From: Hymenobacter tibetensis
GTDB taxonomy: Bacteria > Bacteroidota > Bacteroidia > Cytophagales > Hymenobacteraceae
DNA length: 64,000 nucleotides
Direction: 5' to 3'
NCBI RefSeq assembly: GCF_022827545.1
Contig: NZ_CP094669.1
Coordinates: 1,516,001-1,580,000 of the forward strand
Shown here piece by piece: positions 19,857-23,563 of the stretch. Position 1 is the first letter of the stretch; each line of letters opens with the position of its first letter. A model generated the notes under the pieces. The model had not been told where the DNA came from. It saw only the letters and a program-made list of their open reading frames with translations, and searched no databases. A program made the translations under genes and the position numbers.

Positions 19857-20414
19857 CTAATCAGGTAGTACTAGCTCGCGCGGCAACACGAACTTTAGGC
19901 TGTGGCTTTTATTGCGTGCGTGCAACTGGCTTAGAAAGTCGTCGAGGTCTTCCTTGTATTCCAGCCACAGATCTTCGTGCAGATTGGTGGTAACGAGCTG
20001 GGTGGTGCGGGCTGCCAGCCGGGCCGTAGCCGTGTAGAAACCGCCGTACACGCTGTCGAACTGACCAGTGTAGTTATCGAAGATGAGGCGCAGGATGTAC
20101 AAGTTCAGGTCGATTTCCAGGCGCTTGTCTTTGGTGACGCGTTTGGCGCGGGCCACTTCCTTGGTAGCTTTCTGAAGGGCTTTAGTAAGGCTACGGTTGA
20201 GTAATCGGCCAGTGGCGCCCACCGCAAACAGCTCGTGAATTCGGTCCGAAGTTTCCTCGAATACCGCCTCGATGGTTACGTCAGACAACAGTTCGAAGCG
20301 TAGCGTGTCGTAGAGCTCGGCGTCGCGGCGGGCGGCGCGGAGTAGTAGGGTTTCCTTTTCTTTATCGGAGAGGCGCTGGAGCGCTTTCTTGAAATCGGCA
20401 GACGGAACGGGCAT
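19857..20414 (-). CDS. Conserved-looking hypothetical cytoplasmic protein
   Basis: 185 residues, mostly alpha-helical and charged (MPVPSADFKKALQRLSDKEKETLLLRAAR..., KALQKATKEVARAKRVTKDKR, LNLYILRLIFDNYTGQF). No signal peptide, no membrane segment and no catalytic motif is visible. The ATG at 20414 is chosen because the frame above it (to 20471) reads as a Cys-rich non-protein. The next gene upstream, at 20556, is divergent. It might share regulation with that unit, since the 141-base gap holds paired palindrome-like repeats. Function unknown. Confidence 0.6.
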   Translation of the reverse strand: MPVPSADFKKALQRLSDKEKETLLLRAARRDAELYDTLRFELLSDVTIEAVFEETSDRIHELFAVGATGRLLNRSLTKALQKATKEVARAKRVTKDKRLEIDLNLYILRLIFDNYTGQFDSVYGGFYTATARLAARTTQLVTTNLHEDLWLEYKEDLDDFLSQLHARNKSHSLKFVLPRELVLPD

Positions 20415-20492
20415 GGGCAGGCAAAAACAGCAAGTGCGCACTAAAAGTAGACTAGAAACGCAGCCACGCAACTTTTGGCGATATTGCTGGTG

Positions 20493-20544
20493 CAGTTAGT
20501 AACTGTTGCTAAAAAAATTAGTATATTGAATTCAGTTAGCAACT
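20493..20544. promoter_or_regulatory. Two operator-like CAGTTA repeats
   Basis: CAGTTAGTAACTG (20493-20505) is a perfect 13-base odd palindrome. A near copy, CAGTTAGCAACT, lies 40 bases further (20533-20544), so both face the same side of the helix. They flank an AT-rich stretch (TTAGTATATTGAA) that may hold the promoter of the gene at 20556. Likely binding sites for an unidentified regulator. Confidence 0.45.
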
Positions 20545-20555
20545 CACTTTTCTAT

Positions 20556-20948
20556 ATGGCTTACCTCACCATTCAGGATGAAACGGCTACCGGCAGCATC
20601 CTCAACCGGCTAGAGCTGGAAATCACTCAGGAAACCCTCACTGTGCGCGACTTGATTGCCCAGCGCGTGCAGCAGGAAGTAGCCAATTACAACGTGCAGC
20701 AGTTGGATGTGTACCAAGGACTGGTGCAGCCTACCGACTCGGAGCGGATACTCAACGGGTTTCGGCTGCGCAAAGCCAAGCTGATTGACGCCGAAGAGCA
20801 GGTGTATAAGGCGCTCGAAGGATTCCAGCAAAACGGCTATTTCATATTAGTGAATGACCGGCAAGTGGAAAGCCTGGACGAAGAAGTATGGCTAGGGGCA
20901 GGTGCTACGGCTAGTTTCATCAAGCTCACGCCACTGGTAGGTGGATGA
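20556..20948 (+). CDS. Putative ubiquitin-like beta-grasp protein ending in Gly-Gly
   Basis: 130 residues, start ATG 20556 (MAYLTIQDETATG); the frame extends upstream but reads through promoter DNA. Predicted layout: strand 1 AYLTIQDE, turn, strand 2 NRLELEI, then helix TVRDLIAQRVQQEV, a helical insert (about residues 55-95), and strands FILVNDRQVESL and ATASFIKLTPLVGG. This is the order of a ubiquitin-like/MoaD-ThiS fold, and the C-terminus ends exactly in Gly-Gly as in proteins that are adenylated and conjugated or thiocarboxylated. The helical insert is unlike MoaD. The next gene, 38 bases on, encodes a DUF4132-like protein. No E1, E2 or JAB-domain gene is visible nearby. Fold assignment is inference from pattern, not from alignment. 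Confidence 0.65.
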   Translation: MAYLTIQDETATGSILNRLELEITQETLTVRDLIAQRVQQEVANYNVQQLDVYQGLVQPTDSERILNGFRLRKAKLIDAEEQVYKALEGFQQNGYFILVNDRQVESLDEEVWLGAGATASFIKLTPLVGG

Positions 20949-20986
20949 GGTACATTGCTATTTTACAAGCATTTGTGTATTCTTTT

Positions 20987-23563
20987 ATGGCTAAAGCCTC
21001 CAAGTTTCAATTAGCTGCGCTACCCGCCAATGCCAGTCCGGTCAGCGTGGAAATGCACCCAGTACTGCAACAGCTTATTCGGGAAGCTGGCGCTAATGCC
21101 AACTGGCACAGCAACGTTACCCAGCTACCGGTGTACCAAGCCGCTCGGGCGGCAGATGCGGCCTACCGGGGCCGCTTGGCGCTGGCGGCCGTGGTAGCTT
21201 TGCGCGCCAATGAGGGCCGTATTCGCACGACCTGCTTGCAGCTGCTCGAAGGGCTCAGCCGAATGACTGTGGAGCTTAGTGAGGCCGATTATATTCAGCT
21301 TTTGCAGGCATACGGGTTGGTATTTGATGCGCCCTCTGGCGGCTCGGCGGCCCCTAATCCTTCTATTGTCAGCGATGCGTTGGTTTTTCCGGTGGGCCTC
21401 ACTCTAGGTCAGCTTGAAAAGACCACGAAGAAAAGGGGCCTAGGTACGTCCCTAGCTGCTTATTTAGCCCAGTTTCTGGCCGCTACTGAGCGCGAGTCAA
21501 CGGGCTACCGAGTCAGAGATATTGGCAAGCTGCACCATCGCCTTCAGGTTATTTTAGGCTTGGCTGATGGAAATAGCCGGCCGGTTGTCACCTTCCCGAC
21601 TGGCGACCCTTTTGGTCAGGCCCTCAACGAGTTTGCAGCGGGCCTACCCGATGCGGACGCCACCACCCTGCCGTGGCTGAAGCTTTTTCAACTGTGGCAG
21701 AAAGCCAGCGGCGGACAGCCCACGGCCAAGTTGCGCAAGGAACTAGACGCTGCCGTGGTAGCAGTGGGCAACGAAAACGTATACAAGCAAAGCAGCAAAT
21801 GGCTGCAACTGCTACTAACCATGCCGGTGGTAGAGCATTCTAACACCGTTGACTACAACAACGGCCACACCTATACTTACACGTCCTACACGTATTTGCT
21901 CGATGCCAACGCCGTGGTAGCTAAAGGAATGGTTTGGAGCCTGCTGCCGTTGCTGGACGAACCGCTTCGGCAACAGGTGGCTAGCTTGGCCGGTAAATGC
22001 TACCGCAAAATTCCGGGCAAAGGGCCGCTAGCGGTGGGCTTAGGTAATGCTTGCCTGTTCGTTCTTTCGCAGGGTGGCTTGCCTGGAGTAGCCGCTCTAG
22101 CGCAGGTTCGGTCGAAAATCAAGCAAACCAACACCCAGGAGCTGATTGCTAACCACATTGAAAAGGCCTCGCAAAAACTAGGCGTAAGTGCCGCAGAAAT
22201 TGAAGATATGGCCATGCCCGACGCTGGCCTGCAAAATGGCCGCGTGCACGAGGAATTTGGGGAGTACACCGCTACGCTTACGCTGCTGGAAGGCAAGGCC
22301 GAAGTTCAGTGGGAAAAAGCCGGTAAGCCGTTGAAATCGGCTCCGTCAGCCCTCAAAAGTACGCACGCCGAAGAGTTAAAGGACTTGAAAACCACCCAAG
22401 CTTTAGCCCAACAAACGTTCCTGGCGCAACGTGAGCGGCTTGATCGTGGCTTCGTAGAGGAGCGGCGCATTCCGTTTGCTTGGTTTCAGCAATACTACTT
22501 CGGGCATGGCTTGATGGCTGAACTCGTGCGTCCGCTCATCTGGCGCTTTCATCAGGTTGGCGGCTCTTTCACGGATGCTTTATGGCTTGATGGCGCCTGG
22601 TGCGACAACCAGGGACAGCCTGTGGAACTGCCTTCCGAAACCGATACCGTGCAGTTGTGGCATCCCGTGCTGGCCGATAGCGCGCAAGTGCTGGCGTGGC
22701 GCAGCCTCCTAGATGCCCGGCAACTGCGTCAGCCCCTTAAGCAAGCCTACCGCGAAGTGTACTTGCTTACACCACCCGAAGAGCGCACCCGTACGTATTC
22801 CAACCGCATGGCGGCGCACGTTCTTAAGCAGCACCAATTCAACTCGTTGGTGAAGCTGCGTGGCTGGCGCTATAGCCTGATGGGTGCCTACGATAAAGGC
22901 TACGAATCGGATAGTGCCAAGCTGCTAGTGCCTGGGCACGATTTGCGCGCCGAGTTCTGGGTGAGTGAGGTGAATGCCGATGGTGCCTGGAACGATACAG
23001 GCATCTACTTCTATATCAGTACCGACCAGGTTCGTTTCACGCGCGCAAACGCCGACGAACCCCTCCCGCTGCCCGAGGTGCCCCCGCTGGTATTTTCGGA
23101 AGTGATGCGCGACGTGGACCTGTTCGTGGGTGTGGCCTCCGTCGGCAACGACCCGCTGTGGCGCGACAATGGGGGCTTGGTGCAGTACCGCAACTACTGG
23201 GAAAACTACAGCTTCGGGGAACTGGGTGAAGTAGCCAAAACCCGCAAGCTGGCCCTGGAACGACTGGTGCCGCGCCTGAAAATTGGGAAGGTGAGTGAAA
23301 TCAAAGGCAATTTCCTGGAAGTAAAAGGCAAGCTGCGGACCTACAAAATCCACCTCGGCTCGGGCAATATCCTTATGACGCCCAACGACCAATACCTGTG
23401 CATCGTGCCCGACCGGTCCGTGAAAACCGCCAGCACTGCTGGCGTCTTCCTGCCTTTCGAAGGCGACGCCGTTTTGTCTATTATCCTCAGCAAAGCCCTG
23501 CTGCTGATGGACGACGACACCATCACCGACGACACCATCGTGCGCCAAATCAAGCAACGGTAG
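20987..23563 (+). CDS. DUF4132/MolR-like large protein
   Basis: 858 residues, cytoplasmic, no signal peptide. The C-terminal half matches the DUF4132 group (E. coli YehI/MolR relatives): SNRMAAHVLKQHQFNSLVKLRGW (about residue 605), LRAEFWV, PLVFSEVMRDVDLFVGVASV, and the terminal KGKLRTYKIHLGSGNILM plus YLCIVPDRS near residue 790. The N-terminal half appears as helical repeats (HPVLQQLIREAG..., LVTFPTGDP...). In E. coli, such genes sit with MoxR AAA ATPase and VWA genes; here none is adjacent. The ATG at 20987 (MAKASKFQLAALP) is the natural start, although the frame opens at 20945 inside the previous gene's stop. Cotranscribed with the Gly-Gly protein. Molecular function unknown. Confidence 0.72.
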   Translation: MAKASKFQLAALPANASPVSVEMHPVLQQLIREAGANANWHSNVTQLPVYQAARAADAAYRGRLALAAVVALRANEGRIRTTCLQLLEGLSRMTVELSEADYIQLLQAYGLVFDAPSGGSAAPNPSIVSDALVFPVGLTLGQLEKTTKKRGLGTSLAAYLAQFLAATERESTGYRVRDIGKLHHRLQVILGLADGNSRPVVTFPTGDPFGQALNEFAAGLPDADATTLPWLKLFQLWQKASGGQPTAKLRKELDAAVVAVGNENVYKQSSKWLQLLLTMPVVEHSNTVDYNNGHTYTYTSYTYLLDANAVVAKGMVWSLLPLLDEPLRQQVASLAGKCYRKIPGKGPLAVGLGNACLFVLSQGGLPGVAALAQVRSKIKQTNTQELIANHIEKASQKLGVSAAEIEDMAMPDAGLQNGRVHEEFGEYTATLTLLEGKAEVQWEKAGKPLKSAPSALKSTHAEELKDLKTTQALAQQTFLAQRERLDRGFVEERRIPFAWFQQYYFGHGLMAELVRPLIWRFHQVGGSFTDALWLDGAWCDNQGQPVELPSETDTVQLWHPVLADSAQVLAWRSLLDARQLRQPLKQAYREVYLLTPPEERTRTYSNRMAAHVLKQHQFNSLVKLRGWRYSLMGAYDKGYESDSAKLLVPGHDLRAEFWVSEVNADGAWNDTGIYFYISTDQVRFTRANADEPLPLPEVPPLVFSEVMRDVDLFVGVASVGNDPLWRDNGGLVQYRNYWENYSFGELGEVAKTRKLALERLVPRLKIGKVSEIKGNFLEVKGKLRTYKIHLGSGNILMTPNDQYLCIVPDRSVKTASTAGVFLPFEGDAVLSIILSKALLLMDDDTITDDTIVRQIKQR

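Follow-up and report, generated by a model that had tools for sequence, protein, structure and literature searches.

Within the 64,000-nucleotide stretch of Hymenobacter tibetensis DNA analysed here (hereafter the window), a gene encoding a small ubiquitin-like protein (Ubl) with a free C-terminal Gly-Gly is followed by a gene encoding a protein of the DUF4132/MolR family (Table 1). According to the sequence comparisons, the Ubl is a member of a widespread family in which the C-terminal Gly-Gly is nearly invariant, and together with DUF4132 it makes up a genuine, widely distributed unit to which an E1 enzyme is optional. We propose, with a probability of about 0.5, that the two genes form a DNA-damage-inducible Ubl module, in which an E1 would activate the tail and Cys805 of the DUF4132 protein would accept it. 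The pair may represent an unrecognised ubiquitin-style system of the bacterial stress response. The first-pass annotation of this DNA, which had read the pair as a new conjugation or thiocarboxylate system or as non-covalent partners, is confirmed in what it observed and partly supported in its interpretation; the E1 genes in relatives, the co-variation of Cys805 with the tail, and the SOS box are new in the present analysis, and the SOS link was unforeseen.

Fold and Gly-Gly tail of the small protein

The Ubl is predicted to adopt a beta-grasp fold (predicted structure of medium confidence, predicted local distance difference test (pLDDT) score of 67). Its closest PDB folds were MoaD, ubiquitin, and SAMP1, with MoaD and MOCS2A heading the fold search, so that structure prediction and fold comparison agreed with the beta-grasp assignment of the first-pass annotation. 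At the sequence level, the window Ubl matched no Pfam family at E ≤ 1, including MoaD/ThiS (PF02597), and had no match in the PDB; for 39 members of its family, the Pfam families listed included no ThiS and a single weak Urm1 match (E 0.16). Like MoaD/ThiS with their MoeB/ThiF-type E1s, the family combines a predicted beta-grasp fold, a free Gly-Gly, and, in some operons, an E1 of the ThiF family. Unlike them, the Ubl is longer, contains a helical insert, shows no Pfam ThiS match, and is partnered with DUF4132 instead of MoaE or ThiG. Archaeal SAMP1 and eukaryotic Urm1, which are activated by an E1 only, without an E2, resemble the Ubl in fold and in their MoaD-like tail, but the missing PDB sequence match and the single weak Urm1 match set it apart from them, and we know of no counterpart of the DUF4132 partner in those systems.

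A total of 1707 homologues were found, and the 120 listed end in Gly-Gly (GG) in 119 cases and in Gly-Val (GV) in one. The main locus set consists of 80 loci kept from 229 found in named genomes, including 38 from Hymenobacter and 42 others (L-numbers below are labels of the genome loci examined); the Ubl ends in GG at 78 of them and in GV at one, while the gene is interrupted at one. The GG share in this set is favoured, because the tail pattern F[ILV]KLTPLVG helped to find part of the loci; the protein homologue search and the genome profile search used no such pattern. Among the 78 GG loci, the K, L, P, L, G, and G of the tail are invariant, T is present in 74 (V in four), and V in 77 (I in one). 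All four Gly codons are in use with free variation at both Gly positions, therefore the constraint acts on the protein, and purifying selection was detected on the C-terminal Gly-Gly. Of 864 other open reading frames (ORFs) in the same loci with a length of 150 aa or more, one ends in GG. The tail is also kept in relatives from records named cyanobacteria, Streptomyces, Plantactinospora, Nonomuraea, Gemmatimonas, and Novosphingobium (the last at 32.6% identity), several of which are metagenome-assembled genomes (MAGs). The conservation of the Gly-Gly, which the first-pass annotation had proposed to check, thus holds among the listed homologues but fails in a distant sub-type ending in Trp.

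Pairing with DUF4132 proteins

In a survey of 150 genomes of the family, 33 carry the Ubl gene and the identical 33, as judged by eye from the genome labels, carry a DUF4132 gene. The latter starts no more than 300 bases downstream of the Ubl at 77 of the 80 loci. Among 395 sampled Bacteroidota genomes, DUF4132 was detected above the cut-off in ten, all with a beta-grasp gene nearby (in L161 with an extra gene in between); the beta-grasp profile identified nine of these pairs, and the tenth, L180, was recognised by applying profiles to its locus. Judged from these comparisons, the pairing is near-obligate. The idea that the small gene accompanies DUF4132 held in the Bacteroidota sampled but not beyond, as the DUF4132 genes examined in Acetobacter and Burkholderia have no beta-grasp neighbour. 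The DUF4132 domain itself is shared with other proteins such as E. coli MolR, and E. coli, included as a control, gave a DUF4132 match.

Several variants of the arrangement were also observed. In Hymenobacter sp. H14-R3, three DUF4132 paralogues lie in tandem behind a single Ubl gene (L103, 10001-18434) and share 56-57% identity with the window DUF4132; at a second locus of this genome (L080), the Ubl ends in GV. Nonomuraea gerenzanensis has a complete pair (L182) and, elsewhere, a Cys805-bearing DUF4132 protein beside which no Ubl was found (L187). The Ubls at L114, L137, and L141, which stand without an adjacent DUF4132 gene, keep the Gly-Gly tail, and the next gene at L141 encodes an FGGY kinase.

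Candidate active site and co-variation of Cys805 with the tail

The window protein matches PF13569 with 138.9 bits (cut-off 27), and its AlphaFold2 model, based on a 42-sequence alignment, has a mean pLDDT of 85.3. Residues from about 1 to 405 are predicted to form helical repeats with loose PDB matches only, and this half is possibly substrate-binding; for the mixed C-terminal half, nothing was listed in the whole-chain fold search. The C-terminal half looks like it holds an active site, because His559, Gln582, Gln586, Arg589, Glu590, Tyr592, Ser605, Trp627, Phe684, Arg708, Asp711, Asp722, His789, Pro823, and Asp827 never vary across 55 aligned DUF4132 proteins.

Two size classes of DUF4132 partner were distinguished. 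In the GG-type, the protein is mostly 820-890 aa long, with a few examples of 1041-1136 aa, and in the long type it comprises about 1630-1720 aa. The beta-grasp partner of the long type ends in Trp, mostly as G[SAT]YW, at 13 Bacteroidota loci (W-type), and in GG in Deinococcus, including 98 of 99 relatives of Deinococcus radiodurans DRA0165. Residue 805 is Cys in all 51 aligned partners of GG-type Ubls and in none of the 13 W-type partners, where Ser, Asn, Ala, or His is found instead; unlike in the window pair, it is also not Cys in the two DUF4132 proteins without a Ubl from Acetobacter and Burkholderia. This is the sole position within the C-terminal 330 residues that separates the two groups, with separation defined as an identical residue in at least 50 of the 51 GG rows and at most one of the 13 W rows. 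The GG rows consist of 42 (40 taken from the 74 complete DUF4132 proteins in the 80-locus set, plus the window and L166 proteins) and nine others, with one genome counted twice (L119 = L227) and one partner of a GV-ended Ubl (L080, from a genome that also holds a GG copy, L103). Among the W rows are a deleted remnant (L221) and two variant ends, AGGW (L226) and GRLW (L185), while L230 (broken Ubl, Cys) and L187 were counted apart. When all complete DUF4132 proteins of the 80-locus set were checked, including L080 and L083, whose Ubl gene is interrupted, Cys was found in 74 of 74. This co-variation is the strongest hint that the Gly-Gly tail may meet Cys805, and it gives good grounds for proposing a novel system of conjugation or of thiocarboxylate chemistry.

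E1 genes beside the pair

The lack of an E1 gene noted by the first-pass annotation is true of the H. tibetensis locus, but in ten related operons a ThiF-type E1 gene directly follows DUF4132. At eight of the 42 non-Hymenobacter loci (L115, L119, L128, L131, L139, L146, L148, and L150), the ThiF start lies within four bases of the DUF4132 stop (-4 to +4), and ThiF is likewise immediately 3' of DUF4132 at L166 and L230; three-gene Ubl-DUF4132-ThiF operons are present in Pedobacter, Kordia, and Aureisphaera. On the DUF4132 tree, a quick tree from which L221 and L227 were left out, the presence of ThiF (nine rows) needs six changes, at least four of them forced by starred branches, suggesting that ThiF beside DUF4132 is not a single accident.

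The operon E1s comprise 214-240 aa. The five that were scanned match PF00899 (E 4.9e-65 to 2.1e-58), contain no rhodanese domain according to Pfam, and are nearest to the MoeB/ThiF models of NCBIfam, below the curated cut-offs. The nucleotide-binding motif GxGGLG, NLxRQ, DCxD, and a MoeB-type Cys are kept in the nine aligned operon E1s. Some ThiF protein was found in all 18 genomes checked, and in 12 of 14 control genomes too. The window genome encodes two ThiF E1s, both fused to rhodanese and one of them in a JAB and ThiS cluster, as well as three ThiS-family genes outside the Ubl locus.

This JAB-ThiS-E1-rhodanese cluster (C1:346822-348296) was considered as a dedicated E1 and protease acting in trans and was rejected: its JAB protein occurs in five of the 150 family genomes, of which only the window genome has the Ubl, and the cluster possesses a ThiS of its own. 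It represents (L159, L233) a separate Prok-JAB/ThiS/ThiF-rhodanese cluster of a kind described in PMC1779556.

The composition of the E1s bears on the possibility that the Ubl is a sulfur carrier, in which its C-terminal thiocarboxylate would supply sulfur to a ligand of DUF4132 (small molecule, tRNA, or cofactor), with Cys805 as a relay and no protein being tagged. The closest predicted folds (MoaD and MOCS2A), the nearness of the scanned E1s to MoeB/ThiF, the lack of any E2-like cluster seen to recur, and the rhodanese fusion of both E1s of the window genome are consistent with such a role, as is the report that DRA0165 resembles molybdopterin (MPT) synthase subunits/MoaD and SAMP1 and binds thioredoxin Trx1 (PMC9650054). 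However, the small operon E1s lack rhodanese in the five scanned, three ThiS-family genes are already present elsewhere in the window genome, and control by damage hardly points to cofactor synthesis, which leaves this explanation rather doubtful.

Alternatively, the Ubl might serve DUF4132 as a subunit, either structural or regulatory, with an unactivated tail threading into the active site like MoaD in MoaE. The Trp-ended sub-type retains the pair yet lacks the Gly-Gly end, Cys805, and a neighbouring ThiF (none was found in the examined stretches of the 13 W-type loci, nor in those of four Deinococcus loci, where the Ubl ends in GG), and the majority of loci have no E1. We consider this alternative unlikely, since it leaves unexplained both the ten ThiF genes abutting DUF4132 and the Cys that tracks the GG tail.

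A different gene occupies the usual place of ThiF in two Roseivirga MAGs (L110, 13030-14439; L126, 12886-14301); it encodes 469-471 aa, appears lipoprotein-like by eye, and overlaps the DUF4132 stop by four bases.

Possible SOS-type regulation and the Deinococcus relatives

The candidate operator TTGCTAAAAAAATTAGTA upstream of the Ubl holds the only CTAA-N5-TTAG site in the window. According to PMC8565304, this is the SOS motif of Hymenobacteraceae, controlled by a non-canonical LexA; on this match, the Ubl-DUF4132 operon carries the published Bacteroidetes SOS box. The motif was found upstream of the Ubl at 17 of the 38 Hymenobacter loci, compared with 0.20 expected from first-order shuffles, and a TTAGCAA/TTAGTAA half-site 28-30 bases from the main site recurs in several of them. 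A scan of the genus with the exact 18-mer, which preceded the comparison with the published motif, identified 20 sites in 16 of 61 Hymenobacter genomes, and none with the reversed-pattern control. The Ubl follows five of these sites, and an S24/UmuD-like gene follows another five (Pfam confirmed four of these genes, and likeness one; at one site, an IMS/UmuC-type gene comes next). Two sites precede ruvB, and eight lie elsewhere. Two small conserved families, an 84-aa ORF (L235, L239, and L249) and a 120-aa ORF (L238 and L246), are also located beside the SOS-type 18-mer in Hymenobacter; one member of each was scanned without a Pfam match, and they are candidate new SOS genes.

DRA0165 of D. 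radiodurans (SEP068184) is a distant relative of the window Ubl (profile E 4.6e-14) and adjoins DRA0166, a 1626-aa DUF4132 protein with Cys805 (locus names were assigned via PMC8533742 and gene order). The two pairs have in common the GG tail and the adjacent Cys805-containing DUF4132 but differ in that DRA0166 is of the long type. Despite its GG and Cys, Deinococcus falls with the W-type on the DUF4132 tree; local support for this grouping is 99%, though the tree carried long-branch warnings. According to PMC8533742, DRA0165-DRA0166 is among the targets of DdrO that satisfy chromatin immunoprecipitation sequencing (ChIP-seq), RNA sequencing (RNA-seq), and radiation/desiccation response motif (RDRM) criteria, and mitomycin C raises the DRA0166 protein in an IrrE-dependent manner; damage induction has been shown for this Deinococcus relative only. 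RDRM-like palindromes were recognised by eye upstream in three further Deinococcus loci. In the excerpted text of PMC9650054, the DRA0165 deletion mutant showed increased catalase activity, and the protein was called Deinococcus-only and treated neither as a DUF4132 partner nor as a Ubl; part of that study worked with C-terminal tags, which would block the Gly-Gly tail. Because relatives were found in the present wider family, our comparison suggests that DRA0165 is not confined to Deinococcus.

The distribution of the family also raises the question of an anti-phage or toxin-antitoxin-like defence module, patchily inherited, that uses the Ubl. Known Ubl defence systems are patchily spread across phyla, and the present family likewise occurs in 33 of 150 family genomes and across phyla, including records named Streptomyces, cyanobacteria, and Gemmatimonas and several MAGs. 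However, PADLOC returned no match for the four window proteins scanned, the Ubl and DUF4132 among them, and with the window Ubl as the query 50,697 phage records yielded no match and 72,556 plasmid records yielded two, of which one is an 11.85-Mb replicon, although plasmid records of Deinococcus and Bacteroides do include long-type pairs. A role in DNA damage is the better fit to the SOS and DdrO control, and a defence function appears highly improbable.

Proposed mechanism and opposing evidence

In the proposed damage-inducible module, DNA damage would relieve LexA repression of the Ubl-DUF4132 operon, and a ThiF/MoeB-type E1, encoded by the operon in some bacteria and probably one of the two E1-rhodanese proteins in H. 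tibetensis, would adenylate the terminal Gly of the Ubl. The activated tail would then be delivered to the C-terminal domain of DUF4132 at Cys805, yielding either a thioester en route to a protein substrate, with DUF4132 as an E2/E3-like ligase, or a thiocarboxylate sulfur donor. Where the beta-grasp protein ends in Trp, it would be a non-covalent subunit, and the pair would persist without this chemistry. A covalent function of the tail, the identity of the E1 in H. tibetensis, and the substrate are all matters of inference. A broader version, in which DUF4132 would be a new class of Ubl transferase that receives the tail from an E1-charged Ubl at Cys805 and tags or sulfurates targets in the DNA-damage response, from Hymenobacter to Deinococcus and under unrelated repressors, is put forward tentatively, at somewhat less than even odds.

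Several observations weigh against the proposed module. The link between Cys805 and GG may be explained by one joint loss in the Bacteroidota long-type (W-type) clade, and since this is the simplest history, the co-variation would count as one event, not many. No E1 adjoins the pair in the window genome, at any of the 38 Hymenobacter loci, or at 34 of the 42 other loci, so that E1 activation in H. tibetensis is only inferred. The Arg of the RxxR motif is present in six of six housekeeping E1s but absent in eight of the nine aligned operon E1s (the ninth, L150, lacks the N-terminal stretch holding it), hence the activity of the operon E1s is not certain. No E2 or JAB-like cluster was seen to recur beside the pair, where only Ubl, DUF4132, and ThiF clusters recur widely; a Pfam scan limited to ten neighbours gave an E2 or JAB match in none. 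The SOS box is restricted to fewer than half of the Hymenobacter loci and occurs at none of the 42 others, and PMC9650054, contrary to PMC8533742, reports no damage motif upstream of DRA0165. Finally, one Ubl ends in GV (L080), and three stand without DUF4132 alongside.

Bacterial Ubl operons of the E1/E2/JAB kind include CBASS (cyclic-oligonucleotide-based antiphage signalling system) Cap2/Cap3 and Bil. The operons with E1, E2, and/or JAB described by Iyer 2006 (PMC1779556) are similar to the present ones in combining a small Ubl gene and an E1, whereas no E2 or JAB was seen with the present pair, which has one large DUF4132 protein instead; MolR has no occurrence in that paper, and a search for papers naming DUF4132 did not return it. 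In the open-licence literature searched, no title describes a Ubl-DUF4132 unit. If the proposal is true, a ubiquitin-style system would be added to bacterial DNA-damage responses, DUF4132, a family of unknown function, would gain an activity that can be tested at a specified residue, and a stress peptide of D. radiodurans would be reinterpreted as a Ubl. With all three genes in one operon, Pedobacter, Kordia, and Aureisphaera offer a direct way to test the chemistry in vitro.

Organisation of the locus

The window genome is Hymenobacter-like, with Hymenobacter species as the nearest named relatives in the homologue and locus searches. The features of the locus are listed in Table 1. On the opposite strand, 3' of the DUF4132 gene, an S9/DPP IV-type peptidase gene is followed by a ClpS gene. 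A divergent gene (19857-20471, minus strand) encoding about 185-204 aa without a Pfam match lies across the same intergenic region as the Ubl, so that both genes adjoin the SOS box, likewise in L243, L245, L247, and L252; the two are possibly co-regulated.

Table 1. Features of the Ubl-DUF4132 locus (window positions).
Feature	Position	Strand	Remarks
Half-sites TTAGTAA (20496-20502) and TTAGCAA (20536-20542) flanking the operator	20496..20542	+	
Candidate SOS (Bacteroidetes LexA) operator TTGCTAAAAAAATTAGTA	20506..20523	+	core CTAA-N5-TTAG at 20509-20521
Ubl (predicted beta-grasp), 130 aa, free C-terminal Gly-Gly	20556..20948	+	ends FIKLTPLVGG-stop
Conserved tail KLTPLVGG of the Ubl	20922..20945	+	
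DUF4132/DUF7737 protein, 872 aa	20945..23563	+	858 aa if ATG 20987 is the start
Cys805 codon TGC, motif YLCIVP, proposed Gly-Gly acceptor	23399..23401	+	numbered from ATG 20987

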